Program-made: the position numbers and the translations under genes
Shown: piece after piece, positions 45,028-64,000 of the stretch
Layout: each line of letters begins with the position of its first letter
How positions within the stretch are numbered: the first letter of the stretch is position 1
Assembly: GCF_009498035.1 (NCBI RefSeq)
Contig: NZ_CP034550.1
Coordinates: 6,138,001 to 6,202,000, forward strand
Direction: 5' to 3'
From: Saccharothrix syringae
GTDB lineage: Bacteria > Actinomycetota > Actinomycetes > Mycobacteriales > Pseudonocardiaceae
Length of the DNA: 64,000 nucleotides
Notes under the pieces: model-generated
Databases searched by the model: none
Seen by the model: only the letters and a program-made list of their open reading frames with translations
What the model was told of the DNA's origin: nothing

Positions 45028-47340
45028 TTACACCTCGATGCCGGGGCTCTGCTGCTCCGCCTTTCCCCGCCAGCGGGCGAGGTTGTGGCGGGTGGCCAGG
45101 GTGTCGGGGTGGTCGGGGCCCAGGACGCGGAGCCTGTCGGCCAGCACCGTCTCCAGTGCGGCCATCGCGCCCGCCGGGTCACCGGCCCTACCCCGCCAGC
45201 AGGCGAGGCTATGGCGGGTGGCCAGGGTGTCGGGGTGGTCGGGGCCCAGGACGCGGAGCCTGTCGGCCAGCAGCATCTCCAGTGCGGCCATCGCGCCCGC
45301 CGGGTCACCGGCCCTACCCCGCCAGGAGGCGAGGCTATGGCGGGCGGTCAGCGTGTGAGGGTGGTCGGGGCCCAGGACGCGGAGCCTGTCGGCCAGCAGC
45401 ATCTCCAGTGCGGCCATCGCGCCCGCCGGGTCACCGGCCTTCCCCCGCGAGAAGGCGAGGTTGTGGCGGGTGGCCAGGGTGTCGGGGTGGTCGGGGCCCA
45501 GGACGCGGAGCCTGTCGGCCAGCACCGTCTCCAGTGCGGCCATCGCGCCCGCCGGGTCACCGGCCCTACCCCGCCAGGAGGCGAGGCTATGGCGGGTGGC
45601 CAGGGTGTCGGGGTGGTCGGGGCCCAGGACGCGGAGCCTGTCGGCCAGCAGCATCTCCAGTGCGGCCATCGCGCCCGCCGGGTCACCGGCCCTACCCCGC
45701 GAGAAGGCGAGGCTATGGCGGGTGGCCAGGGTGTCGGAGTGGTCGGAGCCGAGGTGGGTGCAGGCTTGGTAATGCAGGGCGTGCCAGTAGGTGGTCGCAG
45801 CGTAAACCTGACCGGTCTTGCCCAGGGAGTTGCCAGCACGGACGAACACGAGGTGCAACGCGGGGGTGAGCAGCATGGGGGTGGTGTGGGTATGGAGAGT
45901 GTCGGTGCCGGAGCGTAGGGCCTGTTCGAGGTCGGGGTTGGTGGTGTCGTTCTCGGGCCAGACGGTGTGCAGGGCGTCGGCGGTGGTGTGGGCGAGGGTG
46001 TGGAGCCGGTCGGGGGTGAGGGTGTCGCGGACGGCGCGTTGGACCAGGGCGTGTACGGCGACTGTGCGTGCGGGTCGGTCGGGAGTCAGGGTGATCAGGG
46101 AGAATCGGTGCAGTCGGGTTAGTCCGTGGTGGACGTCGGTGGCGGTGACCTCGCGTCCGGTTCGGGTGGTGAGGTGGTCCAGGACGGGCCGGGCGGTGAA
46201 CACCGCGAGTGGGGTGCCGTTGGGGTCGAGCAGAGCGGCGATCTCCAGCAGCGGCCGTACCAGGCCACCGCCCCGGGAGCCGGTGGTCCTGCGTACCCGG
46301 GTGAGCAGGCCGCGCCACCGGGAGGTCGTCGGTGACCTGGTGTCGTCGGCCCGGTCGGCGTGTTCGATGGACAGCGACCAGGTCGCCGCGACGGTGAGCT
46401 GGTGGTCGGGCAGGGCGTGTTCGGGCGGGGTGAGCTCGGCCAGGGTGCGGCGCCGGTCGGCCAGCATGGCCCGGTAGTCGGCGACGCCGAGCAGGGGTTG
46501 GTCGGTGAGGTAGGCCGCGGCCTGGCCCAGCGCCAACGGCAACCACCCCAACTCCGCCGCCAACCCCTCCAGCTGGTCCCGGTCGGTGCCGTCGGTGGTG
46601 CCGGTCAGGGCCTCGGCGAGGTAGGCCACCGCCTGGTCGGGGGTGAACACGTCCAGCTCGATCACCCGGTGACCGCCCTGCGTCAGCGCCGCGTCCCGCA
46701 ACCGACTGGTAATCACCACCCGGCCGGACGGCACCGCGGGCGGGTCCAGTCCCTTCAGGGCGGCGGGGTCCTGCACGTCGTCGAGCACCACCAGCCACCG
46801 CCGCGACGTGCCCGCCAGCCACTCCCGGAACAACCCCGCCGCCCGCTCCGGCGGGCGCTCGCCGATACCCGGGTCCCGCTCGACCAGTACCCGGGCGGCG
46901 GCCTCGGCATAGGCGGTGACCACCGCGTCCCGCGACAACGCCGACACCCACACCGCCACGTCCAGGTCCGGGTCGGACCACACTGACCAGGCGTACTGGG
47001 CGGCCAGCTGGGTCTTGCCCACCCCGCCCAACCCCGACACCACCACGCCCGCCCGCTGCCGGGCGCCGACCAGCACGGCCGCGCGCCCCTCGGTCAACGT
47101 TTCCACCAGCACCGCCTGGACCTGCCGCCGCTGCTGGTAGTGCTGCGCCGGTGTGGGCGGAATCCCCACTCGCACCGGCCATGTCACCCGCACCTGACCC
47201 GTCTGGTGGACCGCGATTCGCACGTCGCGCACGTCCCGGCCGGCCTGCACCGCCACCCCGAGCTCCGACACGGTCGCGTCCTGCCGCACCCTCGGCACAC
47301 CACCGTCGTCTCCGGAGCCTTCGCCCGTCACCACACGCAC
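45028..47340 (-). CDS. STAND (NB-ARC) ATPase with C-terminal 42-residue TPR repeats
   Basis: This 770-aa protein has an intact P-loop 'GLGGVGKTQLAAQYAW' near residue 105, Walker B 'RRWLVVLDDVQDP', the 'GRVVITSRLRD' sensor, and winged-helix region 'LDHLTTRTGREVTATDVHHG'. The C-terminal third is six tandem 42-residue kinesin-light-chain-type TPRs ('DHPDTLATRHSLASWRG', 'GAMAALEMLLADRLRVLGP'). There is no effector domain N-terminal to the P-loop beyond about 60 residues, so the output is unclear. Proteins of this type act as signal-triggered oligomerising switches in regulation or phage defence. The start is GTG 47340. It is divergent from the gene at 47569. Confidence 0.87.
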   Translation of the reverse strand: MRVVTGEGSGDDGGVPRVRQDATVSELGVAVQAGRDVRDVRIAVHQTGQVRVTWPVRVGIPPTPAQHYQQRRQVQAVLVETLTEGRAAVLVGARQRAGVVVSGLGGVGKTQLAAQYAWSVWSDPDLDVAVWVSALSRDAVVTAYAEAAARVLVERDPGIGERPPERAAGLFREWLAGTSRRWLVVLDDVQDPAALKGLDPPAVPSGRVVITSRLRDAALTQGGHRVIELDVFTPDQAVAYLAEALTGTTDGTDRDQLEGLAAELGWLPLALGQAAAYLTDQPLLGVADYRAMLADRRRTLAELTPPEHALPDHQLTVAATWSLSIEHADRADDTRSPTTSRWRGLLTRVRRTTGSRGGGLVRPLLEIAALLDPNGTPLAVFTARPVLDHLTTRTGREVTATDVHHGLTRLHRFSLITLTPDRPARTVAVHALVQRAVRDTLTPDRLHTLAHTTADALHTVWPENDTTNPDLEQALRSGTDTLHTHTTPMLLTPALHLVFVRAGNSLGKTGQVYAATTYWHALHYQACTHLGSDHSDTLATRHSLAFSRGRAGDPAGAMAALEMLLADRLRVLGPDHPDTLATRHSLASWRGRAGDPAGAMAALETVLADRLRVLGPDHPDTLATRHNLAFSRGKAGDPAGAMAALEMLLADRLRVLGPDHPHTLTARHSLASWRGRAGDPAGAMAALEMLLADRLRVLGPDHPDTLATRHSLACWRGRAGDPAGAMAALETVLADRLRVLGPDHPDTLATRHNLARWRGKAEQQSPGIEV
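45060..45740 (-). repeat. 126-bp tandem repeats encoding the TPR array
   Basis: Five to six units of 126 bp, mostly differing at only a few positions, encode the 42-residue TPRs of the NB-ARC protein. Such identity implies recent amplification or gene conversion, and copy number can change without breaking the frame. Confidence 0.9.
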
Positions 47341-48330: not shown

Positions 48331-49653
48331 CTACCGGAAGTTCCTCGCCGTCGTGCCCGCCGCGCGGGGATCGAGCAGACGCAGTTGGTCGGCCAGTACG
48401 CCGAGCGGTCCGCTCGCGGTGTCGAGCATGCCGCGCACGAGCAGGGCGCCGGCGTCGCGGGCGTAGGGGCGGCTGGCACGCCACAGGCCGGGGCCGACGG
48501 TGACGTTGAGCATGCCGGTCTCGTCCTCCAGGTTGAGGAAGACCACGCCGCCGGCGGTGGGCGGCTGTTGGCGGTGGGTGACCGCCCCGGCGACGAGCAC
48601 GCGGGTGCCGTGCGGGAGGTGGCGCAGCCGGTCGACGGGGACCGCGCCCAGCGTGGCGAGGTGGGCGCGCAGCAGCTCGACCGGGTGGCTGTCGGGGGTG
48701 ATGCCGGTCCAGCGGATGTCGGCCGCGACCAGTTCCCACTGCGACATGCCGGGCAGCGCCGGTGCGCCCGCCGCGGCGGTGCCGGGCAGCGTGCCGGGGG
48801 TGCGTTCGCGGGCGGCGGCGCCGGCCTGCCACAGCCCGGTCCGGCGGTCCCCGGTGAGCTCGTCGACCGCGCCCGCGCTCGCCAGGGCCTCCAGGTGGGC
48901 GGTGGACAGGTCCGCGCGCCGGGCCAGCTCGCCCAGGCCGTGGTAAGGGCCGTCGGCCTGGCGGGCGGTGACGATGCGGTCGGCGGCCGCGTCGCCCAGG
49001 TCGCGGATCGCGGCCAGCCCGAGCCGGACCGCCTGCCCGCCGCGGCTGTCGGGATGCGGGTTCAGGGTGGCGTGGGCCAGGGCGGTGTTGACGCCGGCGC
49101 GCAGGATCCGCACCCCGTGGCGGCGGGCGTCGGCGACCAGCGACTGCGGGGTGTAGAAGCCCATCGGCTGCGCGCGCAGCAGCGCCGCGCAGAACGCCGA
49201 GGGGTAGTAGAGCTTGAGCCAGGCGCTGGTGAACACCAGGTGCGCGAAGGCCAGGGAATGCGACATCGGGAAGCCGTACCCGCTGAACGCCTTGACCTGG
49301 CCGAAGATCCGGTCGGCGAGTTCGCCGGTGACGCCGTTGCGCGCCGCTCCGGCGTAGAAGCGCTCGCGCAGGCGGTCCATCTTCGCCGAGGCCCGTTTGG
49401 AGCCCATCGCGCGGCGCAGTTCGTCGGCCTCGCCCGGGGTGAAGCCGGCGACGTCGATGGCGACGCGCATGACCTGCTCCTGGAACAGCGGCACGCCCAG
49501 GGTGCGGTCCAGCGCGTCGGCGAGCAGCGGGTGCTCGTGGCGCCACGGCTCGCCCCGGCGGCGTCGGAGGTAGGGGTGTACCGAGCCGCCCTGGATCGGG
49601 CCGGGCCGGATCAGCGCGACCTCGACCGCGAGGTCCCAGAACGTCTCCGGGCG
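48331..49653 (-). pseudogene. dnaE2: dnaE2 3' part (C-terminal 441 codons), separated by insertion
   Basis: Encodes the C-terminal part of DnaE2, the error-prone C-family polymerase that works with ImuA'/ImuB in SOS mutagenesis. It begins at '..RLRPETFWDLAVEVALIR' with the finger motif 'RPGPIQGGSVHPYLRRR', then 'GVPLFQEQVMRVAIDVAGF', 'FPMSHSLAFAHLVFTSAWL', and an OB-fold ('GTRVLVAGAVTHRQQPPT'), ending TAG at 48331. It lacks the PHP and palm domains, which lie 9.3 kb away at 58947-60964. Its own frame can open at GTG 49671 inside the element, but the product would be inactive. The join at CAGTCG is frame-perfect. Confidence 0.92.
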
Positions 49654-49659
49654 CAGTCG
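49654..49659. repeat. Left core/att site CAGTCG
   Basis: Six-base core shared with 58947-58952. The left flank continues into the dnaE2 3' part; inside the element TTTTTCAACC follows. Probable strand-exchange site of the tyrosine recombinases. Confidence 0.8.
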
Positions 49660-50073
49660 TTTTTCAACCACCGGCGGCAGGGGCGTGCCTCCGACGTGGA
49701 CTGTAGCGACGCGTACATGTCAGCCAAGTAGATGTCGCTCGCACGGCGTGTTGTCGTGTCGAAGTCGGTCACACCGCAGCGGTCGAACGAGCCGTGCAGT
49801 TGTGTGACCGCCGCGCTGGCAGCGCTGTAGAGCCGCTCGCAGTCGGCGAGGGTGGCCTCACGCGCAGCACCAAGTCCGTTGTACCTGGCGTTACCGGATC
49901 GTTGTCGCGTGCTGCGGCGACTGCGGCGTCACGCCAGGTGCACCACGCCCGGTCGCGCTGTGGTCCGGCAGCAGCGAGTGGGTGCGGGTCGCCGACGGCG
50001 CCGTAGCAGTGGCCGCGCAGCACGGTTTCTGGCGGGTGTCCTCCCTGCTGGCCGGTGGGCCGGTGCCGGTCAC
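49660..50073 (-). CDS. Cargo gene 4, unknown, two apparent frameshifts
   Basis: GTG 50073 overlaps the stop of the membrane-protein gene as GTGA. The protein-like pieces lie in successive frames: 'RHRPTGQQGGHPPETVLRGH' and 'AWCTWRDAAVAAARDNDPV', then 'NARYNGLGAAREATLADCER', 'LYSAASAAVTQLHGSFDRCG', 'DIYLADMYASLQSTSEARP'. Each switch fits a single missing base. The last frame crosses the element border and would end inside dnaE2 sequence. The composition suggests a real helical protein of about 135 aa; the family is unknown. Confidence 0.45.
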
Positions 50074-50504
50074 GGACCCGGCGCTGCGGTGAGGGCGGCC
50101 AGCACAGCCACCAGTCCGCAGATCGTCGCGACGGTGACCACCCCGAGGCCCACGTTGATCACCTGCTGGCGGCGCCGCGCCGCCCTTAGGAACTGCTCGA
50201 CTACGTCGTCGTAGTCGTCGGGGCTGATCGCGAGGCGCTGCCCTCGCACCGCCCAGGAGAACAGCAGGGTAGCCGCCAAGAAGGCGAAGCAGGCGATCGC
50301 CAGTAGCACCGCCTTCCAACCGGCGAAATTCGTGCCCACCTTCAGGAATCCGGCCAGCGACAGCAGCACCCCGATCGCGGTCATCGCAGTAGTCGCCATG
50401 ATCTTCGCGAACCCGGTGACCACGTCGTTGGACGTCTTCATCAGGTGCCAGGCGAAGGCCCGCTTGTCCTCGTCGTCATGCCCGACCGGCAGCACCTCAC
50501 TCAT
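50070..50504 (-). CDS. Cargo gene 3: three-helix membrane protein
   Basis: The 144-aa protein has an N-terminal soluble helix, then hydrophobic segments at about 40-58 ('MTAIGVLLSLAGFLKVG'), 63-88 ('AVLLAIACFAFLAATLLFSW') and 117-140 ('VGLGVVTVATICGLVAVLAA'). A charged cytoplasmic loop 'DDYDDVVEQFLRAARRRQQV' lies between helices 2 and 3. No family is recognised. It could be the membrane effector or anchor of the metallopeptidase system. The ATG at 50504 overlaps the CxxC gene by 8 bp, indicating coupled expression. Confidence 0.75.
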   Translation of the reverse strand: MSEVLPVGHDDEDKRAFAWHLMKTSNDVVTGFAKIMATTAMTAIGVLLSLAGFLKVGTNFAGWKAVLLAIACFAFLAATLLFSWAVRGQRLAISPDDYDDVVEQFLRAARRRQQVINVGLGVVTVATICGLVAVLAALTAAPGP

Positions 50505-50748
50505 CGGTCGTGTGGATTACGCGGCGGACCAGGTACGGCCGGCGCCAGGACGCCGACGGTGGCGAGAACGCCAGCTTCGCGGCACCGTTGCAGACCTCGC
50601 AGCGCAACCGCAGCGGGACGGGCGCGGGCAGCGTGCCGCCGCCGGTGTCGAACCCGAAGACCGGCGAGTTGTTGCCGGACACAACGACCTGGTGCGGGTG
50701 CCCGTTGAGCTCCACGTCGACCGTGCAGACGGTCTCCTCCGACGCCAT
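50497..50748 (-). CDS. Cargo gene 2: small CxxC protein
   Basis: The 83-aa protein is beta-rich ('VCTVDVELNGHPHQVVVSGN', 'NSPVFGFDTGGG') with 'LRLRCEVCNGAAKLAFSP', a single CxxC plus an upstream Cys that may bind zinc or act in redox. It lies 9 bp after the metallopeptidase gene and overlaps the membrane-protein gene by 8 bp. Its role may be as an adaptor or regulator of the peptidase; this is inferred from position only. Confidence 0.7.
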   Translation of the reverse strand: MASEETVCTVDVELNGHPHQVVVSGNNSPVFGFDTGGGTLPAPVPLRLRCEVCNGAAKLAFSPPSASWRRPYLVRRVIHTTDE

Positions 50749-50757
50749 GCGCCCTCC

Positions 50758-53700
50758 TCAGCGGCCTTCAAGGGTGGCCGCGAACCGATCGTAGTAGTCG
50801 ATCGAGCCGAGTTCTGGTCTGCGGCGCAGCAGCGACCGGATCAGGTTCACCGCCCGAAACACCAGCGGGCGGTGGCCGGTCCCGTCAGGGGAGCCGTCGA
50901 TCCGCACGGACAGATCCTGCCGCTCCTGATTCGTCGGCGTGTGTCTCCGCTGCCGCCGCACCTCGTAGGCGTATAGGCTGCGAAGCTGGATCGACATGGC
51001 GAGATACAGCTCATCAGCGCTGTCCTGGGCGGCGATGCCGTCGAGGAAGAACGCGTCGGCCTCCTCCTCGAGGGCGAGCGCTTCCCGTGCGGTCCGGGCG
51101 CCCGCCGCGTGGCCGTGGTGGGCGTGCCCGATCTCGTGGGCGATCACCCATTCGAGCAGGGCCCGTTGCCGGGCGCGTGCCTTCGTGGTCAGGACCGTGG
51201 CGGCCGCCTCCCACTCACTGCCAGCGAGGCTCTTCTGGATGATCGCCTCCTCGGCATCCCAGGTGAGTTCACCGGCGTTGAACAGGTCCTCCAGGTATGA
51301 CAACGAGCAGACGATCATTTCGGACTCCGGGACGTACACGCAGCCGTGCAGGCCCGCTAGGTGGCCCTCCGGATCGGACTGGTAGAAGTAGACGTCCAGG
51401 CTGGCTCCGGGAACCGGCTGGTTGATTCGGGCTATGTCGTCGAACCGCGACAGCGCCGACCAGCGGTCGAGAACCGGCCCGAACACGGCCAGGTCGGGCA
51501 GCTGCCAGACGCCACGTTCGTGGTAGTGCGCGATCACTTCGCGCCAGGGCGCCCCAGCCGGCAGGCCCGGGCCGCCGGTCAGCGGGATCGACGCGATGCG
51601 GTTGGAGCGCGTTCTCCAGGCGTCCGCCTCATAGTCTCCAAACACCCGGCGCCCCATCAGCGGGTCGCCGCGTCTCGCGCCGGCGAGCGTGTCGATGAGG
51701 GCGTCGCCGAGCGCTTTCCATGTGGTGGGGATGAGCAGTCGGTGGATGTCCTCATCGGGCGCGCCGAGCCCGCGTAGGGTCTCGGCGAGCCCGGCCAGGT
51801 CCTTGTGCCGGGCGGGAGCCACCGTTTTGCCCGGCCACCGGGCCGCGGCCCGGCCAGCGGCAACGGCGGCGTGCCCGAGGCCAGCCCAGTCGTCGAAGCC
51901 GTCGGCCCTCCACGACGTCACCGTCTTGCGGGCGGCACCCCAGCGGTGTTCGCGGATTGCGCAAGCCACAAGGATCCGCTGCAGGGCGATTCGCTCGTCG
52001 TCGTCCATCTGGGTCTCCGGATCGGTGAGCATCCAGTTCGCCCGGTCGGCGGCGGCCGCGAAGTCGTCGAACAGGAACTGCGACTCGACCATCCCGCGGT
52101 TTACGTCGAACGCCACGTGGTCGTAATCGCCGGCGACGCCTCGCGCGTCCACGTCCATCTCGAGGACCAATCGGTCGGCGACAGTGGCGTACATCAGGGC
52201 GTCGCCGCGTTCCAGTTCCCGGAACACCGACGACAGCTGTTCGAGGGCGTAGGCCATGGAGACGATGTCATCGGTCGCGCGGAAGTCCTCGACCGCCCCC
52301 CGGAAGTGGTGCACTGCGGTCGGGAAGTCATCGTCGTAGTCATGGGCGAAGATGCCGGCCCGGAGCCGGAGTAGGCCGCGCAGCGCGCGGCTGCCGACCG
52401 CCGTGAGAAGCTGATGCGCCTCCCGGAACGCGGCTCGGGCGGTGTCCAGGTCACCCTGCTTCGAGCTGACCACCCCGAGGTTCACCAGGTCGTATGGCCG
52501 CCGGCCTGGCGGGCTCCCAGGTGTACGACGCTCGGCGAGTTCCTGGGCGATCTCGCGTTCGGCGGCCTGGTTCCCAGCCTGGGCCTGTGCGGTCAGCAGC
52601 AGTTCGAGGGCTCGGTCCCGCAGATAGCCTCGATGTCGTCCGACCAGCACGGTAAGCTGCGGAATGCCGGTGGTCTCCGCGAGTTCGGCCCAGTCCGCGT
52701 AGGCCGCCTCGACCCCGCGTTCCGCGGCGTCGGCGACCAGCCCGACCCTCCAGATCTCGTCGTCGGGCGCACGCCGGCGTAGCAGGTCCAGCGCGGCCTC
52801 GCGCCCAGCCATGAACACCTCGGTGGGTGCGGCCAACAGGATGTCGCGGGACGTCTCCAGATCCGGTGCGCTGACCGCCGCCAGCAGGTGATCCTCGGCG
52901 GCCGGGGTGCCGTGTTTCACCGGGTAACGTCGCTGCGCCTCGGTGGCCGCCGCCTCGATTCCGTGCTCCCAGGCGTCCTCGAGGACTTGGCCGTGCGCGT
53001 CGAGGACCGCCAGTTGCGCGGCCGTGTACCGGACGTCGCGCTTCATCCCGGCCAGGATATCGCCGGCCAGGTCACCACCAAGTTCGTCCGGGTACGCGCG
53101 GTGCACCTCGGCCGCCGCGGCCCAGGTGGGCGCGGACAGGAACGCCTCCAGCGCCTCCAGAACGAGGAACTCGCAGGTCGCGAAGGCGGCCGCCTGCCCG
53201 TCCTCGGTCGCCCGGACCACGAGATCCCGGACCGCGCGGACCACCCGCCGGCTATCCGGATTCGATAGGACCTCGACCGCCTCGTCCAGCCGGTCCCGGG
53301 TCCACGGGTCGCGCAGTAGGTCGAGGTGCCGGCGGATCGCGTCGCGCCGGGCCGTCCAGGTGCGCGCGTCCAGCAGCAGCCAGCTCAGCAGCTCATTGGC
53401 GGTCGGCTCGTCGGACGGCTCGTCGCGCGCGGCGAGCAGGCCGGTGACCGCGAGGTTGGCCGCGTTCTCCGCGCGGGTCAGCGACGCCTCCGCGAGCATC
53501 GCGTCGGCCTCGTCGCGCCCGTTCACCCCGATCCACAGCGAGAACCGCAGGTTCGTGTCGTCGACCGCCTCGTCGGGATGGAACAGCTGGTAGTGGGCTT
53601 GTTCGTCAGGGCTCAACGGCAGGCCGAGCAGGAAGAACCGGGCATCACGGCGGCGGAACTCGGCCTCGATCTCGGCGAGCCGATGACCGGCGGCCATCAG

Positions 53701-53802
53701 GTCGCGCAGCCGGAGTGCGACGAAGACGGCACCGGGGTGGCCGAGTTCCTCGTACTCGGCGCACAGCAGTCCAACCTCGCTGCTCAGACTGCCGCCTGTC
53801 AC
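50758..53802 (-). CDS. Cargo gene 1: large helical/TPR protein with C-terminal HExxH metallopeptidase
   Basis: The 1014-aa protein is long and alpha-helical, with TPR-like units in the middle ('VNLGVVSSKQGDLDTARAAF', 'YALEQLSSVFRELERGDALM'). At residues 889-893 is the zinc site 'VIAHEIGHAHHGHA' (HExxH), and 20 residues later 'LALEEEADAFFLDG' supplies the third ligand (ExxxD), the gluzincin pattern. I know no named family with this architecture. Coupling of a sensor-like helical domain to a protease suggests a triggered effector or processing enzyme, as seen in conflict and defence systems (inference). The start ATG/GTG at 53802 follows IS481 debris. First gene of the cargo operon. Confidence 0.8.
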   Translation of the reverse strand: MTGGSLSSEVGLLCAEYEELGHPGAVFVALRLRDLMAAGHRLAEIEAEFRRRDARFFLLGLPLSPDEQAHYQLFHPDEAVDDTNLRFSLWIGVNGRDEADAMLAEASLTRAENAANLAVTGLLAARDEPSDEPTANELLSWLLLDARTWTARRDAIRRHLDLLRDPWTRDRLDEAVEVLSNPDSRRVVRAVRDLVVRATEDGQAAAFATCEFLVLEALEAFLSAPTWAAAAEVHRAYPDELGGDLAGDILAGMKRDVRYTAAQLAVLDAHGQVLEDAWEHGIEAAATEAQRRYPVKHGTPAAEDHLLAAVSAPDLETSRDILLAAPTEVFMAGREAALDLLRRRAPDDEIWRVGLVADAAERGVEAAYADWAELAETTGIPQLTVLVGRHRGYLRDRALELLLTAQAQAGNQAAEREIAQELAERRTPGSPPGRRPYDLVNLGVVSSKQGDLDTARAAFREAHQLLTAVGSRALRGLLRLRAGIFAHDYDDDFPTAVHHFRGAVEDFRATDDIVSMAYALEQLSSVFRELERGDALMYATVADRLVLEMDVDARGVAGDYDHVAFDVNRGMVESQFLFDDFAAAADRANWMLTDPETQMDDDERIALQRILVACAIREHRWGAARKTVTSWRADGFDDWAGLGHAAVAAGRAAARWPGKTVAPARHKDLAGLAETLRGLGAPDEDIHRLLIPTTWKALGDALIDTLAGARRGDPLMGRRVFGDYEADAWRTRSNRIASIPLTGGPGLPAGAPWREVIAHYHERGVWQLPDLAVFGPVLDRWSALSRFDDIARINQPVPGASLDVYFYQSDPEGHLAGLHGCVYVPESEMIVCSLSYLEDLFNAGELTWDAEEAIIQKSLAGSEWEAAATVLTTKARARQRALLEWVIAHEIGHAHHGHAAGARTAREALALEEEADAFFLDGIAAQDSADELYLAMSIQLRSLYAYEVRRQRRHTPTNQERQDLSVRIDGSPDGTGHRPLVFRAVNLIRSLLRRRPELGSIDYYDRFAATLEGR

Positions 53803-53823
53803 CAGCTCAACATATCGAATAGG

Positions 53824-54340
53824 TCAGTGGAAACCATGGACGACGTTGAGCACCGTCTGCGCCAGGTCACGCGCCGACGATTTGGTGGATCCGGGCGCGA
53901 CCGGGCCACCGGGCGACGATCCGGCGGGCACACGGTTGTTCTCCCCGGTCGGGTCGAGGAACCGGCGGCCGTTGAGCCCGAGTGGTCCAGGTGTCGGCCG
54001 ACGGTACGCACCGACACCGCCGTGCCCTCGGCGGCGAGTTCCAGCGCGATGCGACGGGCCGACCATTGGCGCTCCCGCCGCGGCCGCTCGATCCGGACTA
54101 CCACCGCGGCCGGTGCGGCGGTGGGCTGCCTGCGCGGAGCACTGGGACGGTCGGGCAGCCCGGCCTCGTCGAAGCGGCGGTAGCGGTTGACCCATTTCGA
54201 GGCGCACTGCCGGAGATGCCCATCTCGGCCGCGACATGGGCGATGGGGTGGGTGCGGCAGCGTTGCACCAGGCGGTGGCTGCCTTCGACCGATAGCGGGG
54301 CGTTACCGTGAAGCGTGGACGGGTCTTTCTGCTCGGCGGA
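53824..54340 (-). pseudogene. IS481-family transposase remnant
   Basis: Pieces in different frames reconstruct the N-terminal half of an IS481-type transposase: 'GNAPLSVEGSHRLVQRC', 'VVRIERPRRERQWSARRIAL', 'ELAAEGTAVSVRTVGRHLDH', 'LGLNGRRFLDPTGENN'. At least three frame breaks and loss of the DDE half make it inactive. It separates the cargo operon from the recombinase genes of the element. Confidence 0.75.
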
Positions 54341-54396
54341 TGTATTGGTCGCACTTCCATCCTGCCGCCGAAAGACCCGTCCCCTCGTGTCAGCCC

Positions 54397-55056
54397 TTAA
54401 CGGCCGTCACCGACGTCATCACGCGCAACATCAGCAGTCCGACCTGACCGTTGGAGGCCGATTCCGGGCATGTCCGGGATCTCGTGGTGGAGCAGGCGTG
54501 CCTCCAGGTCGCCGAGCCGGCGGTCGAGGAAGCGGTTGTTGGAGCGTGCGGCTTCCAACCGCTCGGTGAGTAGTCGGTTTCCGTCGTCGAGTTGCCGGAC
54601 CTGTTGTGCGAGCGCGGTGTTCTCGGTGACGAGTCGGTCGACGGTCGCCTGTGCGTCATGTGGGGCGAGGTCGCGGATGTGGCCCAGCAGTTCGGCGATC
54701 CGCCGGCGTTGCAGGGTGATCTCACGATGCGCGGCGGTCAGGGCGTCCTCGGCGTTGAGTGCCCGTTCCCGCCAGGACGATTCCGCTGTCCGGTCGTGGG
54801 TCTCGGTCGTCGTTCTGTGCCGTGCGCCAGCCGTCGCGATCGCGGCTTCGACCAACCGGCGTGCTTCGGCGTTCTCGTAGAGGAAGGTGCGGGAGACGCC
54901 CGCCCGGGTGGCGACTGCGCGGACGGTGACCCGGGAGCCGTCCTTGCGGATCTTCCGCAGCGCCTCCTCGACGTCGCGGAGCAGGCGGCCAGCGTGCTGG
55001 CGGCGTGCCATCACGGCGGCGGCGGTACGGTCACCGTTACGGGTCGCGCCGGTCAT
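54397..55056 (-). CDS. TnpC/DUF6262-like helper of the Tn554-type element
   Basis: The 219-aa protein has a helix-turn-helix-like segment ('SRVTVRAVATRAGVSRTFLY') followed by a long coiled coil ('ALTAAHREITLQRRRIAELL', 'LVTENTALAQQVRQLDDGNR'). This is the DUF6262/TnpC pattern. In Tn554, TnpC stimulates and orients recombination by TnpA and TnpB. The GTG at 55056 overlaps the upstream recombinase stop by 4 bp. It is the last gene of the recombination operon and lies about 600 bp before the cargo gene on the same strand. Confidence 0.82.
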   Translation of the reverse strand: MTGATRNGDRTAAAVMARRQHAGRLLRDVEEALRKIRKDGSRVTVRAVATRAGVSRTFLYENAEARRLVEAAIATAGARHRTTTETHDRTAESSWRERALNAEDALTAAHREITLQRRRIAELLGHIRDLAPHDAQATVDRLVTENTALAQQVRQLDDGNRLLTERLEAARSNNRFLDRRLGDLEARLLHHEIPDMPGIGLQRSGRTADVARDDVGDGR

Positions 55057-57641
55057 TCCGGAACCTTCTGACTGTTGTCGTGGTCAGTGGCGAGGTCGGC
55101 GGCAGGGAAGGAGGTGCTCCAGACCCGGTTGAAGAAGTCCTGCGGACGGCGCATGTCCAGGGAGAGGGCGTCGTCGAGCAGACCGAGCGCGGCCAGGGCC
55201 TTCTCGAGTCCATCGATCGCGCGACCGGTCGGTGCGAACACCTGGTGCAGGTAGTCCGCGGTGGCGTCGTCGGGGGCGCGTTCGGCGATAGCTCGCCACT
55301 GTTCGCGTTTGCGCCGCCAGTAGAGCAGGTCCGCGCCGGACAGCACGAACTTGTCGCAGTTGTGGCAGTCAAGATTCCACGGGCAGCGGTGACCCTGGAC
55401 CACGGGCTGAAAGGTGCAGAATCCACCCTCGGCCGGAGTGCTGCGTCTCGCGAGATCCACGGCGAGAGCTTCGGCGCGGGCGCGGTCCATCGGCTCGATC
55501 CCGGTGGACAGCGCTTGGCCGGGGATGGGTGAGCCGGGGCCGGTGACCCAGACATGCTGGAGCACGTCCTCGATCTCGGACAAGGCGATCTTGGCGTACC
55601 GTTCGGTCATCCGTTCGGAGACGTGGCCGAGGTATCGGCGGATGTGCGACAGGCCCGCGCCGTGGCGCAGCAGGGCGGTGGCCAGGGTATGACGTGCCTG
55701 GTGGGCGACGAACCCGCCCAGATGCAGCCCGTCCATCCAGATCCGGAACGCTCGGTAGAACCAACTGTAGTCCAACGGCTTGGTGCCGAAGGGATTGCGG
55801 ATGGGGGTGGGGAACAGCGCCAGGCCGGCGCGTTCGTCGACGCTTGGGTGGCGACCGTGGCGTTGGACGAACGCTGCGAGGGTCTTGCGGCGGCGTTCCT
55901 CCAAGCGGGCGTGCACCGATTGCGGAATGCGGATCGCCTCGTCGTAGTGGCCGATCTTGGTCTGGTCGTGCCACAGCAGCGGCAGTCCGTGGTGGACCTC
56001 CACGCACTCCAACTTCAGCCCGATCACCTCTCCGCAGCGGCGGCCGGTGGCGACGAGGGTCTCCCAGACGTCGCGCAGCCCTCGGTCGTCGGTGTCCAAC
56101 GCGTCGAGGCGGTCGAGGTTGGCGGGGTCAGCCACCGCCTTGGCGACGTGGTCGGGGAACGGCCGCCGCACCCTGCCCCCGCGCGCTCCGGTCGCCGGTA
56201 CGGCCACGGCGAACTCCCGGTCCAGACGGATCTGCTCCAACCGGCCCTGATTCCAGGCGTTGGTCAGCAGCCGGCGCAGGGCGTCGAGCACATCGGCGCG
56301 GGTGCCTGCGGTGACCAGGGCCGGTGTGCCGTCGCTGCGGATCAGCGCCGGGGAGGGTAGGCGGTCGCGTTCGCGGCGCCGGTAGTCGGCGACGAACCGG
56401 TCCATGTGCCCGGCCCGCAGCAGCGTGGGGTCGTGCCCGCCCTCGGGCGCGTCGCCGGCGAGGAACGCGCCGAGTTCGACGCAGGCCCGGCGCATGCGGT
56501 CGAACGGGCCTCGCTGCGGGCATTTCGGCGAGCGGAGCAGGGCCGCCATCGCATCCCAGCACAGATCCCGGAGCCAGCGCTGCGGGATCGCGGTGAGGCT
56601 GAAATGACTGGTGTTGCGACGGAACCGGACTCCGAAGTGGTCGGTTTCGATGAAACCCGCCTCGCGGGTGTCCTCCACGGTGAAGTAGACCAGCCGCAAC
56701 TCGTCGAGGATCTCCCGCGCCACGGTCCGCGCGTAGGGGACGCAGTCCGCCAGCTCCAGGTCGACCAACGTCGTCACTTGTGCCTGCAGGCAGGCGTTGG
56801 CCAGCGCCTGCACCCACGCCAACGGCCACGTCGAGCGTGCACCGTCCTGGTGGCGGAACAGCCCCCACCTGATTTCGGCCGCGACCAGTGGATGCAGCCC
56901 CAGCAGGTTCGCCTGTCCGGGCACCGGCTCCACCGGCGCCCGGCGGCACCACTCACGGAACGCCGCGCGGTCCACGCAGGAGATCGGGACCGGCCTGCCG
57001 CAGCTCTCGAAGTACCGGAACCACCTCGCAGGGATTGCCATCCCGCCGGGCCGCCCGGCGCGTCCGTAGGCGCCCTCGTGCCAGCGACACAACCTCAACG
57101 GCGACCAGGCCAGATCCGGGCACGCGGCGGCCTGGCAGTCGCCGTAGCCGTCGAACGCGGCCTGGTCGACCAGCCACTGCTCCAGCGTGACCTCGGGGTG
57201 CTTCGGGGACCAGTGCCTCCACCGGTTGTAGTGCCGGTGGCAGAGGCGGTGGCCGTTGCTGCGGGCCGGGCGGACCAGGCAGATCCGGCACGGCACCTGC
57301 CCCACGTATCCGGCCGCCGTCAACGGCTGCGCCGTCAGCAGGAATTCGGCCCGGCCGGTCCCGGCGGCCCGTGCCTGCCGCCAGAGCCTGCCGTGCTCCC
57401 AGCAGTGGTTGAAGTTGCTGGTCTGTTCGTTCGGTCGTTCGCATCCGGCGACCACGCACATCCACCGGTAGGTGGGGTGGTCGGGTGGGAACCGCACGAG
57501 GTGCGGACGCAGGAGCGGGTCGAACGACGGCGCGGCGATCAGCGCCGTGAGCAGCTCCAACCGGTCACCGGGAAGACGATCCCTCTGAGGATCGCCGGGG
57601 TTGCGCAGCAGGTTCAGTCGCACCGTCGACGTGGTCGTCAC
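55053..57641 (-). CDS. TnpB-like large tyrosine recombinase
   Basis: This 862-aa protein is much longer than Tn554 TnpB (about 630 aa). The N-terminal 230 residues contain several Cys/His pairs ('CRICLVRPARSNGHRLCHRH', 'LCRWHEGAYGRAGRPGG') that look like zinc-binding modules. The C-terminal half has a full catalytic set: 'GRRCGEVIGLKLEC' (R), 'AHQARHTLATALLRHG' (HxxR), 'RYLGHVSERMTERYAKI' (H, Tyr). A final 'CPWNLDCHNCDKF' cluster follows. GTG 57641 overlaps the stop of the TnpA-like gene, and its own stop overlaps the helper gene, both as 4-bp GTGA. Confidence 0.87.
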   Translation of the reverse strand: MTTTSTVRLNLLRNPGDPQRDRLPGDRLELLTALIAAPSFDPLLRPHLVRFPPDHPTYRWMCVVAGCERPNEQTSNFNHCWEHGRLWRQARAAGTGRAEFLLTAQPLTAAGYVGQVPCRICLVRPARSNGHRLCHRHYNRWRHWSPKHPEVTLEQWLVDQAAFDGYGDCQAAACPDLAWSPLRLCRWHEGAYGRAGRPGGMAIPARWFRYFESCGRPVPISCVDRAAFREWCRRAPVEPVPGQANLLGLHPLVAAEIRWGLFRHQDGARSTWPLAWVQALANACLQAQVTTLVDLELADCVPYARTVAREILDELRLVYFTVEDTREAGFIETDHFGVRFRRNTSHFSLTAIPQRWLRDLCWDAMAALLRSPKCPQRGPFDRMRRACVELGAFLAGDAPEGGHDPTLLRAGHMDRFVADYRRRERDRLPSPALIRSDGTPALVTAGTRADVLDALRRLLTNAWNQGRLEQIRLDREFAVAVPATGARGGRVRRPFPDHVAKAVADPANLDRLDALDTDDRGLRDVWETLVATGRRCGEVIGLKLECVEVHHGLPLLWHDQTKIGHYDEAIRIPQSVHARLEERRRKTLAAFVQRHGRHPSVDERAGLALFPTPIRNPFGTKPLDYSWFYRAFRIWMDGLHLGGFVAHQARHTLATALLRHGAGLSHIRRYLGHVSERMTERYAKIALSEIEDVLQHVWVTGPGSPIPGQALSTGIEPMDRARAEALAVDLARRSTPAEGGFCTFQPVVQGHRCPWNLDCHNCDKFVLSGADLLYWRRKREQWRAIAERAPDDATADYLHQVFAPTGRAIDGLEKALAALGLLDDALSLDMRRPQDFFNRVWSTSFPAADLATDHDNSQKVPE

Positions 57642-58831
57642 CGCTGCCCCCAGACCGTGCGCAGTGCCGCGTCGAACGCCAGATCGTGCAGATCCACATG
57701 GGCGTAGATCTCGTCCACCATCGCCGTTGATGCCCACCCGCCCGCCTCGCGCGCCACCACCAGGTTCCCGCCGCTGGCCTCCAGCACCGCCGTGGCGAAA
57801 CTGTGCCGGAACATGTGTGGCCGGACCCGGCCCAATCCCGCCCTGCGGCCCGCACGTCGCAGCATCCCCCGCGCAGCCGCGGGAGCCCACGCCTGCCCGA
57901 TACCCGGCCCGGCCAGTTGTACCAGCAGCAGTTCGTGCCCGGCGGCGACGGTCCGCCGTTCCCCGACGATGTAGTCGAAGTAGGCATGCACCATCGCCGG
58001 ACTGACCCGCTTGATCAACCCTCCGATGACCGTGCCGTCCTCGACCGACCACGGCACCCGACCTTTGGCCAGCGCGTCGTTGGGGTTGTCGTGCCGGCGG
58101 CACACGTGCACATGCGGCGACCGACACTCCCCGCACGCCGCGTCCGACCTCAGATGGAGGTCAGCCAGGTGCAGCCCGCACAACTCGCCGATCCGTAGAC
58201 CGCCGTCCGCAAGCCACTGGACCACCAGCCGGTCCCGCGCATAGGTCAGGACCGGCAGCAGCTTCTCCTTCGCGCCCTCCGGCAGCATCTTCGGGTGGCG
58301 TCGTCGCACCCGCTGCGGCGCGAGAGGGTTGGCCGCGACCCGTCCTGTCACGTGGCCGAGCAGTCGGCGGCGCCGGTCCGCGCGGGTCGGCAGGCGCGAC
58401 CGGTCCAGCTCCTCGGCCAGCGCCCGGTTCACTCCCGACTTCGCCTGCTCCAGGTAGAAGCCCTTCAGACATGCCGCCGCCGTCGACAGCGCGCTGTCCC
58501 CGTACGGACGCTTGCCCACCCGCCACGGCACACCGAGCGGACCTGGGATCTTCGCCCCGACCGCGCCCATGTACCGCTCCAGATCCCGCAACGTCACCCG
58601 TCCCGGCGCAAGCCCTTCGCGCACGCACCACCGCAGGTGGTCGACCAGGCAATACGCGTAGGTGCGCTGGGTTCCCGACCCGTCGTGGAGCGCCAAGAAC
58701 CGGTCGGCACCCTCGTGCACCCGACCGTCCGCCTCCACGATCGTGAAGGACTTCCACCCGACCGACCGGTCGACCGACTGCACCCGCAACTGCCCGACCA
58801 CCAATAGCCGACGTCCCACACACGCCTCCAT
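57638..58831 (-). CDS. TnpA-like tyrosine recombinase
   Basis: This integrase is about 397 aa. Its catalytic motifs are 'ADGGLRIGELCGLHLAD' (Arg), 'PHMFRHSFATAVLE' (HxxR), 'AGGWASTAMVDEIYAHVD' (His replaced by Trp, as often; Tyr nucleophile). The N-terminal core-binding domain is present ('GTQRTYAYCLVDHLRWCVRE'). An extra 'ACGECRSPHVHVCRRH' insertion with Cys/His may bind zinc. The start is uncertain: ATG 58831, GTG 58819 (better spaced to GGAGG) or GTG 58885. It is the first gene after the truncated dnaE2, 86 bp or less downstream on the same strand. Confidence 0.87.
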   Translation of the reverse strand: MEACVGRRLLVVGQLRVQSVDRSVGWKSFTIVEADGRVHEGADRFLALHDGSGTQRTYAYCLVDHLRWCVREGLAPGRVTLRDLERYMGAVGAKIPGPLGVPWRVGKRPYGDSALSTAAACLKGFYLEQAKSGVNRALAEELDRSRLPTRADRRRRLLGHVTGRVAANPLAPQRVRRRHPKMLPEGAKEKLLPVLTYARDRLVVQWLADGGLRIGELCGLHLADLHLRSDAACGECRSPHVHVCRRHDNPNDALAKGRVPWSVEDGTVIGGLIKRVSPAMVHAYFDYIVGERRTVAAGHELLLVQLAGPGIGQAWAPAAARGMLRRAGRRAGLGRVRPHMFRHSFATAVLEASGGNLVVAREAGGWASTAMVDEIYAHVDLHDLAFDAALRTVWGQR

Positions 58832-58916
58832 CCCGGGGACGCCCGCACACCACGCACGTCCCGTACCAAGTCGGTAAAGAGGCACGCTGGCTTGAGGACA
58901 AGCCGGTCCGCGAACG

Positions 58917-60964
58917 TCACGAACACCCCAACGGGTGGTCGGAAAACAGTCGGGGCAGGGTGGACATCTGGGCCCGGCTCTCCACCTGGAACACCCCGAC
59001 GGTGTCGGCGTCGCACAGCATCGCGTAGACGGCCGGGTCGGCGAGGTCGAGGCGTGCGAGGTCGACCCGGACGCCGTGGTGGGCGGCGATCAGGTCGCGG
59101 GCGTAGCGGACCGCGGAGAGCATCCCGAGCCCGAGCAGGTCGAACTTGACCAGCCCGGCGGTGGCGCAGTCGTCCTTGTCCCACTGCAGGACGGTCCGGC
59201 CCGGCATGCGCGCGCGCTCGACGGGGACCACCTCGGCCACCGGCCGGTCGCAGATCACCATGCCGCCGGAGTGGATGCCCAGGTGCCGCGGGAACCCCTC
59301 GATCCGGGCCGCGAGGGCGAGCACGTCGGCGGGCACCGGCGGCACACGTCCCGCCGCGCCGTCGCGCCCGGCCGCCGGCGGCGCGGCGGCGGCGTCGCGC
59401 ACGGTGCCCCACGAGTCCGCGGTCCTGCTCCAGGCGTCCCGGCTGCCCGGCGGGTGCCCGAGGGCGTACGCGGCATCGCGGATCGCCGAACGGACCCGGT
59501 AGGTGACGACGTTGGCGACCTGGGCGGCGTGACGGCGGCCGTACTTGCCGTAGACGTACTGGATGGCCTGCTCGCGCCGGTCGGACTCGATGTCGAGGTC
59601 GATGTCGGGCGGTCCGTCCCGCCCGACGCTGAGAAACCGCTCGAACAGCAGGTCCCAGCGCACGGGGTCCACGTTGGTCACGCCGAGCGCGAAGCAGACC
59701 GCCGAGTTCGCCGCGGACCCCCGTCCCTGGCACAGGATGTCGTTGCGGCGGCAGAAGTCCACGATGTCGTGCACCACCAGGAAGTAGCCCGCGAAGTCCA
59801 GGCGCTCGATGACGTCGAGCTCGTGCTCCAGCTGCGCGTGGGCACGCGGGTCGGCATCGGGCGGCCCGTACCGCTCGCGGGCGCCGGCGAGGGTCAGCGT
59901 GCGCAGCCAGGACACCTCGCTGTGGCCCTCGGGCACCGGGAACGGCGGCAGCCGGGGCGCGACCACGCGCAGGTCGAACGCGCACTCCATGCCCAGCACG
60001 GCCGCGCGGGCCACGGCACCGGGGTAGCGGGCGAACCGCGCGGCCATCCGCTCCCCGGAGCGCAGGGCGGCCTGCCCGTGCGGCGGCAGCCGGCCCGCCA
60101 TCGCCTCCAGCGGCAGCCGTGACCGCACCGACGCCAACGCCGCCGCGACCCGTCCGGCCCGCGGCTCGGCGTAGTGCACCGCGTTGGTCGCCACCACCGC
60201 CACCCCGACCTCGGCGGCCACCGCCGCCAACAGGTCGTTGCGCACCGAGTCGCCTGGCTGCGCGTGGTCGACCAGTTCCACCACGACGTGGTCGCGGCCG
60301 TACCGGTCCACCAGCGCGTGCAGCCGCTCGGCGGCCGCGGCCGGGCCGTGCTCGGCCAGGGCGCGGCGCACCGCGCCCTTGCGGCACCCGGTCAACACCA
60401 GCACGTGCCCCGCCAGCTCGTCGACCACCTGCTCCGGGTCGTAGACCGGCACCCCTTGTCGTCGCCGCGCAGGTGCGCGTCGCTGATCACCGAGCACAGC
60501 CGTCGGTACCCCTCCGGCCCGCGGGCCAGCACCAGCAGGTGCTCACCCGCCGGGTCCGGCACGCCGGTGCGCGGGGCACCGCCCAGGCCCAGCTCGGCGC
60601 CGTAGGCGGTGTGCACGCCGAGGTCCCGGGCGGCCTCGGCGAAGCGGACCACGCCGTACATGCCGTCGTGGTCGGTCAGCGCGACCACATCCAGGCCCAG
60701 CCGGGACGCCTCCTCCACCAGCTCCTCGGGATGGCTCGCGCCGTCGAGGAAGCTGAAGTTGGAGTGGACGTGCAGCTCGCCGTAGGGCACCCGGGCCAGG
60801 CCGGGCTCCTCGCGGGTCACCCGCCGCCCGGCCAGGTCCTGCGCCCGCACGTACCCGTCCCGGCCCCGCGGACCCGGCGACCGGTGCCCGACGGCGTCGA
60901 CCCGCCCGGACAACGCCCCCGCCGGCTCGCTCCACGGCCCATCCGGCCGGCTGTCGAAGCCCAC
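58917..60964 (-). pseudogene. dnaE2: dnaE2 5' part (PHP and palm domains), truncated by the element
   Basis: Encodes the first ~672 codons of DnaE2: PHP domain ('GELHVHSNFSFLDGASHPEE', 'VVALTDHDGMYG'), then 'GRGSAANSAVCFALGV', the catalytic 'GPPDIDLDIESDRREQAI' and 'GIHSGGMVICDRPVAEVVPV'. After '..AQMSTLPRL' the frame enters the element and stops nine codons later at 58917. A one-base deletion in the G run near 60456 also separates the PHP frame ('CSVISDAHLRGDDKG') from the rest ('VPVYDPEQVVDELAG'). GTG 60964 follows GGGGGAGAGG. A LexA-like box lies 60 bp upstream. The 3' part is at 48331-49653. Confidence 0.92.
58947..58952. repeat. Right core/att site CAGTCG
   Basis: Second copy of the core. 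Outside lies dnaE2 5' sequence; inside, the complement TTTTCCGACCACC mirrors the left inner end. Confidence 0.8.
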
Positions 60965-61023
60965 CGCACACCTCTCCCCCGACGACAACGCCGAGGGGAA
61001 GCCGGCATCCGCTGCTCGACTGG

Positions 61024-62142: not shown

Positions 62143-64000
62143 CTACCGGCCGGGGTCGTCGCGCTGGTCGGGCATGGAGGGCTGTGGTGCGTCGTCCCGG
62201 GTGGTCGCGGCGCAGTCGTCGACAGGCTCGGCGGCCAGGTCGAAAGCCACCGCGTGCTCGTGATGGCCTGTCAGGTTCAGGTCTCGGCGTAGTTGCGCCG
62301 CGGCGCGCTGGTAGCGCGCCTCGTACAGCTCGGGGTCTTGTTCGGCGCATTCCCGCCATAGCGTCACTGCTTCGTGTTGTGCACGAAGCGCACCGTCGAG
62401 GTCTCCCATCTCGCTCAAGATGACGCCGAGGCTGTACAGCGAGTGGGCCCGGTCGGGGCGGTGGCGGTCGGACTCGGCCTCGACCTCGGCCTCGGCCTCG
62501 GCCAACTCACGGTAGATGGCCACGGTCTGCTCGATGGCGGTCAGCGCCTCCCGCGCCCGCCCCACGTCCCGCAAGCAGATGCCGAGGTTGTACAGCGAAT
62601 CGGCCAGGTCGGGGCGGTGGCGGTCGGACTCGGCCTCGACCAACTCACGGTAGATGGCCACGGCCTGCTCGACAGCGGTCAGCGCCTCCCGCGCCCGCCC
62701 CACCTCGCCCAGAATGGCGCCGAGGTTGTGCAGGGAGCTGGCCAGGTCGGCGCGGTGGCGTTCGGGCTCGGCCTCGGCCTCGGCCAGCACACGTCGGATG
62801 GCCACGGCCTGCTCGACAGCGGTCAGCGCCTCCCGCGCCCGCCCCACCTCGCCCAAGATGGCGCCGAGGTTGTGCAGGGACCTGGCCAGGTCGGCGCGGT
62901 GGCGATCAGGGTCGGCCTCGGCCAGCACACGGCAGTGATCCACGGCCTGCTCGGCGACGATCACTCCCTCCCGCGCCCGGCCCACCTCCACCAAGCAGGA
63001 CCCGAGGATGTGCAGAGACCTGGCCAGGTCGGCGCGGTGGCGATCAGGGTCGGCCTCGGCCTCGGCCAGCACACGTCGGATGGCCACGGCCTGCTCGGCG
63101 GCGGCCAGCGCCTCCCGCGCCCGGCCCACCTCCACCAAGCAGGACCCGAGGTTGTGCAGTGACACGGCCAGGTCGGCGCGGTGGCGATCAGGGTCGGCCT
63201 CGGCCAGCACACGGTAGTGATCCACGGCCTGCTCGGCGGCGGCCAGCGCCTCCCGCGCCCGGCCCACCTCCACCAAGCAGGACCCGAGGTTGTGCAGTGA
63301 CACGGCCAGGTCGGCGCGGTGGCGATCAGGGTCGGCCTCGGCCAGCACACGGTAGTGATCCACGGCCTGCTCGGCGGCGGCCAGCGCCTCCCGCGCCCGG
63401 CCCACCTCCACCAAGCAGGACCCGAGGTTGTGCAGCGATCGGGCCAGGTCGGCGCGGTGGCGATCAGGGTCGGCCTCGGCCAGCACACGGCAGTGATCCA
63501 CGGCCTGCTCGGCGACGGCCAGCGCCTCCCGCGCCCGCCCCACCTCCACCAAGCAGGACCCGAGGTTGTGCAGCGATCGGGCCAGGTCGAGGCGGTGGCG
63601 GTCGGGCTCGGCCTCGGCCAGCACACGGTAGTGCTCGACGCGGAGACGGGCTTGGGCCAGGGACAGGTACGGCAGCTCTGGGATGTCGTCCAGTGTGATG
63701 AGGCGCGTGCGCAGGTCGCTGTCGGTGCCGTAGGTGTCGATCAGGGCGGCGAGGGCGTGGTCGAGGGTGCGGCCGGTGACGCCGGTGGCCAGGACGGCGG
63801 CCAGCGCGTCGGGCAGAAGGTGTGGTTGGCGGGTGAGCAGGGCGGTGAGGTGGTCGAGCGCGTCGGGGAAGCTGCTGTGGGCGCGGGCCAGCACCGGCGC
63901 CACGGCCGGGACGTCGTCGTCGCGGAGCAGGCTCGGGGTCCGGGTGAGGGTGTCGAGCACCAGTCGTTCGCCGACCAGGTGGGGCCGCAGGTCCAGACGG
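62143..64000 (-). CDS. TPR-array protein, 5' end outside the window
   Basis: At least 619 residues are visible; the frame is open to the right edge, so the N-terminus is missing. An upstream helical domain ('VPAVAPVLARAHSSFPDALD') is followed by about nine TPRs of roughly 40-43 residues ('LHNLGSCLVEVGRAREALAA', 'AEQAVDHYRVLAEADPDRHR'), then a non-repetitive tail. The architecture suits the C-terminus of a larger STAND or CHAT-type protein, where TPRs bind the trigger or partner; the missing part decides this. Adjacent repeats are almost identical at DNA level. Confidence 0.8.
   Translation of the reverse strand, partial: RLDLRPHLVGERLVLDTLTRTPSLLRDDDVPAVAPVLARAHSSFPDALDHLTALLTRQPHLLPDALAAVLATGVTGRTLDHALAALIDTYGTDSDLRTRLITLDDIPELPYLSLAQARLRVEHYRVLAEAEPDRHRLDLARSLHNLGSCLVEVGRAREALAVAEQAVDHCRVLAEADPDRHRADLARSLHNLGSCLVEVGRAREALAAAEQAVDHYRVLAEADPDRHRADLAVSLHNLGSCLVEVGRAREALAAAEQAVDHYRVLAEADPDRHRADLAVSLHNLGSCLVEVGRAREALAAAEQAVAIRRVLAEAEADPDRHRADLARSLHILGSCLVEVGRAREGVIVAEQAVDHCRVLAEADPDRHRADLARSLHNLGAILGEVGRAREALTAVEQAVAIRRVLAEAEAEPERHRADLASSLHNLGAILGEVGRAREALTAVEQAVAIYRELVEAESDRHRPDLADSLYNLGICLRDVGRAREALTAIEQTVAIYRELAEAEAEVEAESDRHRPDRAHSLYSLGVILSEMGDLDGALRAQHEAVTLWRECAEQDPELYEARYQRAAAQLRRDLNLTGHHEHAVAFDLAAEPVDDCAATTRDDAPQPSMPDQRDDPGR
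62490..63640 (-). repeat. About 120-bp tandem repeats of the TPR array
   Basis: Eight to nine units of 120-129 bp. Between about 63105 and 63415 two successive 120-bp units are identical over almost their whole length. Length variants come from extra GCCTCG codon pairs (Ala-Glu). Confidence 0.9.

Follow-up and report, generated by a model that had tools for sequence, protein, structure and literature searches.

The dnaE2 gene of Saccharothrix syringae treated here is interrupted by a 9,287-bp Tn554-like element at positions 49660-58946, with the hexamer CAGTCG at each border. Coordinates refer to the window, the whole 64,000-nucleotide stretch of DNA analysed (positions 6,138,001-6,202,000 of a single 10.93-Mb contig), unless genomic positions are given. 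The insertion in dnaE2 is confirmed as real and precise. It is very probably the work of a site-specific, Tn554-related transposon carrying tnpABC and passenger genes, which would have entered as a circular copy, leaving the hexamer of the target at one border and that of the donor at the other.

The split dnaE2 gene and its intact relatives

The interrupted gene is read on the minus strand and lies in three pieces, here placed on PRK05672, the NCBIfam error-prone DNA polymerase model of 1047 positions. The 5′ part (60392-60988) encodes the PHP domain (PF02811, 1.5e-25; PRK05672 positions 4-115), and its frame is lost ahead of the next piece. The middle part (58917-60497; PF07733, 2.1e-79) reaches from PRK05672 position 107 to 607, includes positions 1-59 of the fingers domain PF17657 and ends in STLPRL, followed by nine codons of the element and a stop. 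The 3′ part (48331-49671), whose first four codons belong to the element end, supplies the rest of the fingers as well as the HHH and OB regions (PF17657 positions 57-166 and PF14579; PRK05672 positions 606-1047). An earlier sequence-only reading had recognized two DnaE2 halves on the same strand, and their complementary coverage of the model (606-1047 against 4-607) agrees with it. This places the 9.3-kb gap between adjacent positions of the model (607/606), inside PF17657.

The hexamer CAGTCG, noticed at both borders in the same reading, is found on the plus strand at 58947-58952, the tnpA-proximal or left border (CGACTG in the sense of dnaE2), and at 49654-49659, the right border. Two random hexamers would match by chance with a probability of about 6e-4, given the base composition of the window. 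The conserved ends of related elements also set the borders, independently of the repeat.

The codon of insertion is intact in close relatives, as the sequence-only reading had expected. DnaE2 was found at the cut-off in 21 of 25 genomes of the genus, giving 25 listed loci, and in 24 of these, including the intact paralogue of the same genome, the codon is uninterrupted; the sole exception is the split gene itself. When the flanks are joined with one copy of the core they read LPRL-RPETF and align without gaps to three intact genes, with 414 of 479 bases identical in L051, 415 of 479 in L029 and 415 of 480 in L049. Alignment to the more distant paralogue of the host (L050) requires a single 3-base gap that does not touch the junction. 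L051 reads CCC CGA CTG CGC CCC, which is the predicted empty-site core with its neighbours, and none of the other 23 intact loci carries CGA CTG. One of the unbroken loci (L052) has an apparent frame change elsewhere, its two parts lying in open frames of 704 and 930. The frame-perfect core claimed earlier is correct insofar as the flanks rejoin as LPRL-RPETF, but any insertion that keeps the core would give the same result.

A second frame break lies in the N-terminal part of the split gene, which occupies two frames near 60.45-60.50 kb. The L029 orthologue lies within a 1151-residue open frame without stops and is open where the window sequence shifts frame; the break may reflect decay or a sequencing error. 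The split copy is very likely inactive. It is flanked by genes for an NB-ARC/TPR protein (45028-47340) and a TPR-repeat protein (62143-63960).

The suggestion that the element had struck the mutasome polymerase does not hold. The split gene, with its second frame break, is a spare paralogue and not the ImuB-linked DnaE2. An intact DnaE2 is encoded at genomic positions 10,278,224-10,281,568, and one of the two PF00817 proteins of the host is encoded about 1.8 kb upstream of it (10,283,412-10,283,786), presumably an ImuB-like neighbour; no PF00817 gene of the host lies near the split copy. The nearest named relatives of the intact protein are Saccharothrix and Actinosynnema proteins (92% identity). 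The nearest relatives of the split copy are 73-85% identical (others 57-70%) and were seen in two genomes only (G601 and G606). Loss of the mutasome was considered and rejected, since the split gene is the spare copy and both the intact DnaE2 and its adjoining PF00817 gene are present. The effect of the insertion on the host is probably small because the intact DnaE2 remains.

Recombinase genes and passengers of the element

The whole element (49660-58946, minus strand) is bounded by the ends TTTTCCGACC and GGTTGAAAAA, which form imperfect inverted repeats: TTTTCCGACC faces TTTTTCAACC when the other end is read in reverse, and ACC follows in both. DNA folding of the left end is unremarkable (z -1.37). 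All genes described below lie on the minus strand. The first, tnpA (57638-58885, start codon unsettled), encodes a short tyrosine recombinase (PF00589, 2.1e-18). The catalytic motif R-HxxR-(H/W)-Y is kept in TnpA, where R231, H357, R360, W384 and Y394 are invariant across all 13 proteins of the TnpA alignment. The long tyrosine recombinase TnpB (55053-57641; PF00589, 6.3e-15) would comprise 862 amino acids, assuming a start at the GTG within the four-base overlap with the end of tnpA (GTGA). It is followed by tnpC (54397-55056), which overlaps tnpB by ATGA and encodes a DUF6262 protein (PF19776, 4e-11, above the cut-off); its other matches are to Csm1_N, below the cut-off, and weakly to PADLOC mad1 (0.0095). 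Judged from gene position, the DUF6262 protein would be the counterpart of TnpC. Two PF00589 matches and DUF6262 thus bear out the tnpABC assignment made from the sequence alone. A second copy of the element was sought in the host genome and none was found; its four further TnpA-like matches show 31-41% identity.

Three open frames can be regarded as passengers, and PADLOC gave no match to them. The largest (50758-53802) encodes a 1014-amino acid protein with a weak TPR match (PF07719, below the cut-off) and, by eye, a HEIGH motif resembling that of metal proteases. It is rare: scoring 7,992 candidates gave five homologues, the best of them 92% identical and located on another contig. An 83-amino acid frame (50497-50748) has no Pfam match. 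A 144-amino acid frame (50070-50504), membrane-spanning in appearance by eye, has no match in Pfam, NCBIfam or PADLOC. Between the 1014-amino acid passenger and tnpC, the stretch 53824-54360 resembles by eye a decayed insertion-sequence transposase, and the frame tested has no Pfam match.

Related elements, border hexamers and the proposed course of insertion

Matches to TnpA at or below 1e-100 number 845 among 7,993 scored candidates, the closest besides the protein itself being P0007 (82%) and P0008 (76%). Across the order, TnpA is sparse (7 of 397 genomes at 1e-60, the host included), as it is across the class (4 of 394 at 1e-110, again with the host), and no relative was found in the viral contigs searched. 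The 26 relative loci examined comprise five from named contigs, six from the order, three from the class and 12 of 21 plasmid matches.

Target genes were identified from a Pfam run on 13 of the 26 left flanks. The elements break a creatininase (L020), an MvdD-type ATP-grasp protein (L021), comM/Mg-chelatase (L023 and L069), a restriction helicase (L024) and a TniB-like ATPase (L067). On a Streptomyces plasmid, L078 splits ku, with the right half annotated as Ku and equal cores CCTGGG. Matches below the cut-off are to an ADP-ribosylglycohydrolase at L076, supported by the annotation of the right half, and to DUF222 at L011; the left flanks of L073, L074, L082 and L083 have no Pfam match. By eye, L013 resembles trpA read on the other strand. 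L023 and L069 are diverged elements from genomes of different families, and both interrupt ComM at an identical position, the codon after RG(I/V)LFLD.

Other elements at the dnaE2 codon, which the sequence-only reading had proposed to look for, did not appear. The junction was recovered from one of 390 family genomes and one of 394 class genomes, both times the host itself, with patterns limited to elements whose left end is similar and that show the exact codon pattern; the two sets overlap in G000, G014 and G027. No DnaE2 match at 1e-3 was found in the available DNA around the 26 relatives, with left flanks of 68 bases at L009 and 56 bases at L010, and the window, used as a positive control, was detected. 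From these sequences, dnaE2 does not so far appear to be a recurrent target.

Both borders could be set in 10 of the 26 relatives. Because L081 is the L076 locus again, from a second assembly of that strain, it was set aside; the nine remaining relatives and the window make up 10 insertions for comparison. The other 16 have short contigs or divergent or ambiguous ends; L010, for instance, stops exactly at the right end of the element. Like ends and 6-bp hexamers are found in all nine. The two hexamers are equal in five of the 10 insertions (the window, L021, L067, L078 and L080) and unequal in the other five (L009, L073, L074, L076 and L077). Rhodococcus sp. WAY2 carries L073 and L074 on two plasmids, and the two are 99.6% identical over 4,820 aligned bases; their left hexamers are GTCGAT and GTCGAG, and their right hexamer is GTGGAG in both. 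The genes that these two elements interrupt are related to each other and have no Pfam match. When each hexamer is read as two codons, left and right specify identical residues in L074, L076 and L077, though at L077 the joined frame is not open and the reading there may not be that of the gene. They encode similar residues in L073 (VD and VE) and L009 (LD and VE, frame by eye).

This pattern recalls the strand-biased circularizing integrative elements (SEs). For SEs, the accessible text of PMC10214605 gives the rule that the left 6 bp come from the target and the right 6 bp from the donor. The same portion of the source states that a 6-bp footprint is observed for Tn554-related elements too, and that Tn554 had yet to be assessed for formation of the empty site and the circle. 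The unequal hexamers fit the expectation that the left one belongs to the new target and the right one to the last home. The favoured course of events would accordingly run as follows. The transposon inserted site-specifically between two codons of a conserved motif in the DnaE2 fingers, LPRL and RPETF. In the most likely scheme, TnpA and TnpB act on a circular form of the element and recombine it with the 6-bp target core; the joint of the circle would carry a 6-bp spacer, so that the hexamer of the target ends up at the tnpA-proximal border and that of the last home at the other. Relatives and the published work on SEs point to the circle and to a donor hexamer that is carried along. The equal hexamers of the window are compatible with carry-over, with a plain shared core or with a 6-bp target duplication. 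Most simply, they would mean a previous home that also had CGACTG, perhaps, as a guess, another dnaE2.

One possible, though unlikely, extension of that guess is a lineage dedicated to dnaE2, in which the element would already have resided in a dnaE2 carrying CGACTG at the same codon before its last move. The low chance of a CGACTG/CGACTG match speaks for it, as does L051, which shows that dnaE2 alleles with this hexamer exist. So do the right hexamers of the unequal relatives, whose residues match or resemble those of the left, and the ComM codon shared by L023 and L069. These observations are set against a junction seen in the host alone among the 390 family and 394 class genomes, a CGACTG present in just one of 24 intact loci and the lack of any DnaE2 match near the 26 relatives. 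In broader form, each actinobacterial Tn554-like lineage might be faithful to one protein motif (the Walker B motif of comM, SD|D in ADP-ribosylglycohydrolase, a site in ku, LPRL| in DnaE2), with the right hexamer as a record of the last home and the present element moving from dnaE2 to dnaE2; this is a speculative and rather doubtful proposal.

Phage-like excision and integration, in which both partners share a 6-bp core apart from an occasional mismatch, would account for the five insertions with equal cores, but cores are unequal in the other five, and two copies at different sites share their right hexamer; it is improbable. Far less credible is the idea that the dnaE2 halves remain functional, whether they act as a split polymerase or the insert is removed at the RNA or protein level. 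Although the element end supplies an in-frame GTG to the C-terminal half, the break lies inside the fingers domain and the N-terminal part has its further frame break. In addition, no Rfam family, introns included, reaches the threshold in 49000-59500, and no intein match was found in the five element frames scanned with Pfam. An assembly artefact, or the joining of two unrelated loci, can be practically dismissed. The N-terminal frame break could be a small sequence error, but the locus lies on one 10.93-Mb contig and its ends, hexamers and gene content agree with those of independent relatives. Site-specific insertion through a circular copy remains the preferred reading.

Place among known elements

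The usual target of Tn554 is radC. In this narrow sense the element departs from Tn554, as its target is dnaE2 and its passengers differ. The sequence-only reading had regarded the target as undescribed: no paper treating Tn554 and dnaE2 together was found in the open-access papers searched (subscription papers were mostly outside the search), no listed title dealt with this target, and nothing there contradicts the claim. A target other than radC is, however, ordinary in the actinobacterial branch, because relatives sit in various genes. What is new, as far as the searches go, is dnaE2 as a target gene; the kind of element is already known.

PMC3414803 introduced an actinobacterial Tn554-related class in 2012 from a clustering of recombinase proteins. 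In its members, as in the element described here, a short tyrosine recombinase gene lies next to an abnormally long one, and many carry a third, TnpC-like gene read in the same direction. The element fits this class in its short and long recombinases, its DUF6262 gene in the same direction and its imperfect inverted ends. In contrast to that description, as far as the source is available, borders, 6-bp cores and target genes, dnaE2 among them, are resolved here. With Tn554 of Staphylococcus the element shares tnpABC, imperfect inverted ends, a 6-bp footprint and site specificity (accessible parts of PMC10214605 and PMC3414803). The hosts of Tn554 named in the available text of PMC10214605 are Staphylococcus and Enterococcus only.

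SEs, described from Gammaproteobacteria, have a Tfp gene between their recombinase genes (available portion of PMC10214605), whereas tnpA and tnpB of the element overlap by four bases. RIT elements and GInts, as presented in the accessible parts of PMC10214605 and PMC3414803, resemble the element in their rows of several such genes. RIT elements consist of three tyrosine recombinases in a row, and the third protein of the element is instead a DUF6262 protein without a recombinase match; GInts have four genes against three here.

L073 and L074 constitute a natural pair for testing the Tn554/SE carry-over rule in Actinobacteria. A transposon class defined in 2012 from recombinase clustering gains a description of its borders and targets, and dnaE2, together with ku and comM in relatives, is added to the genes that it breaks.
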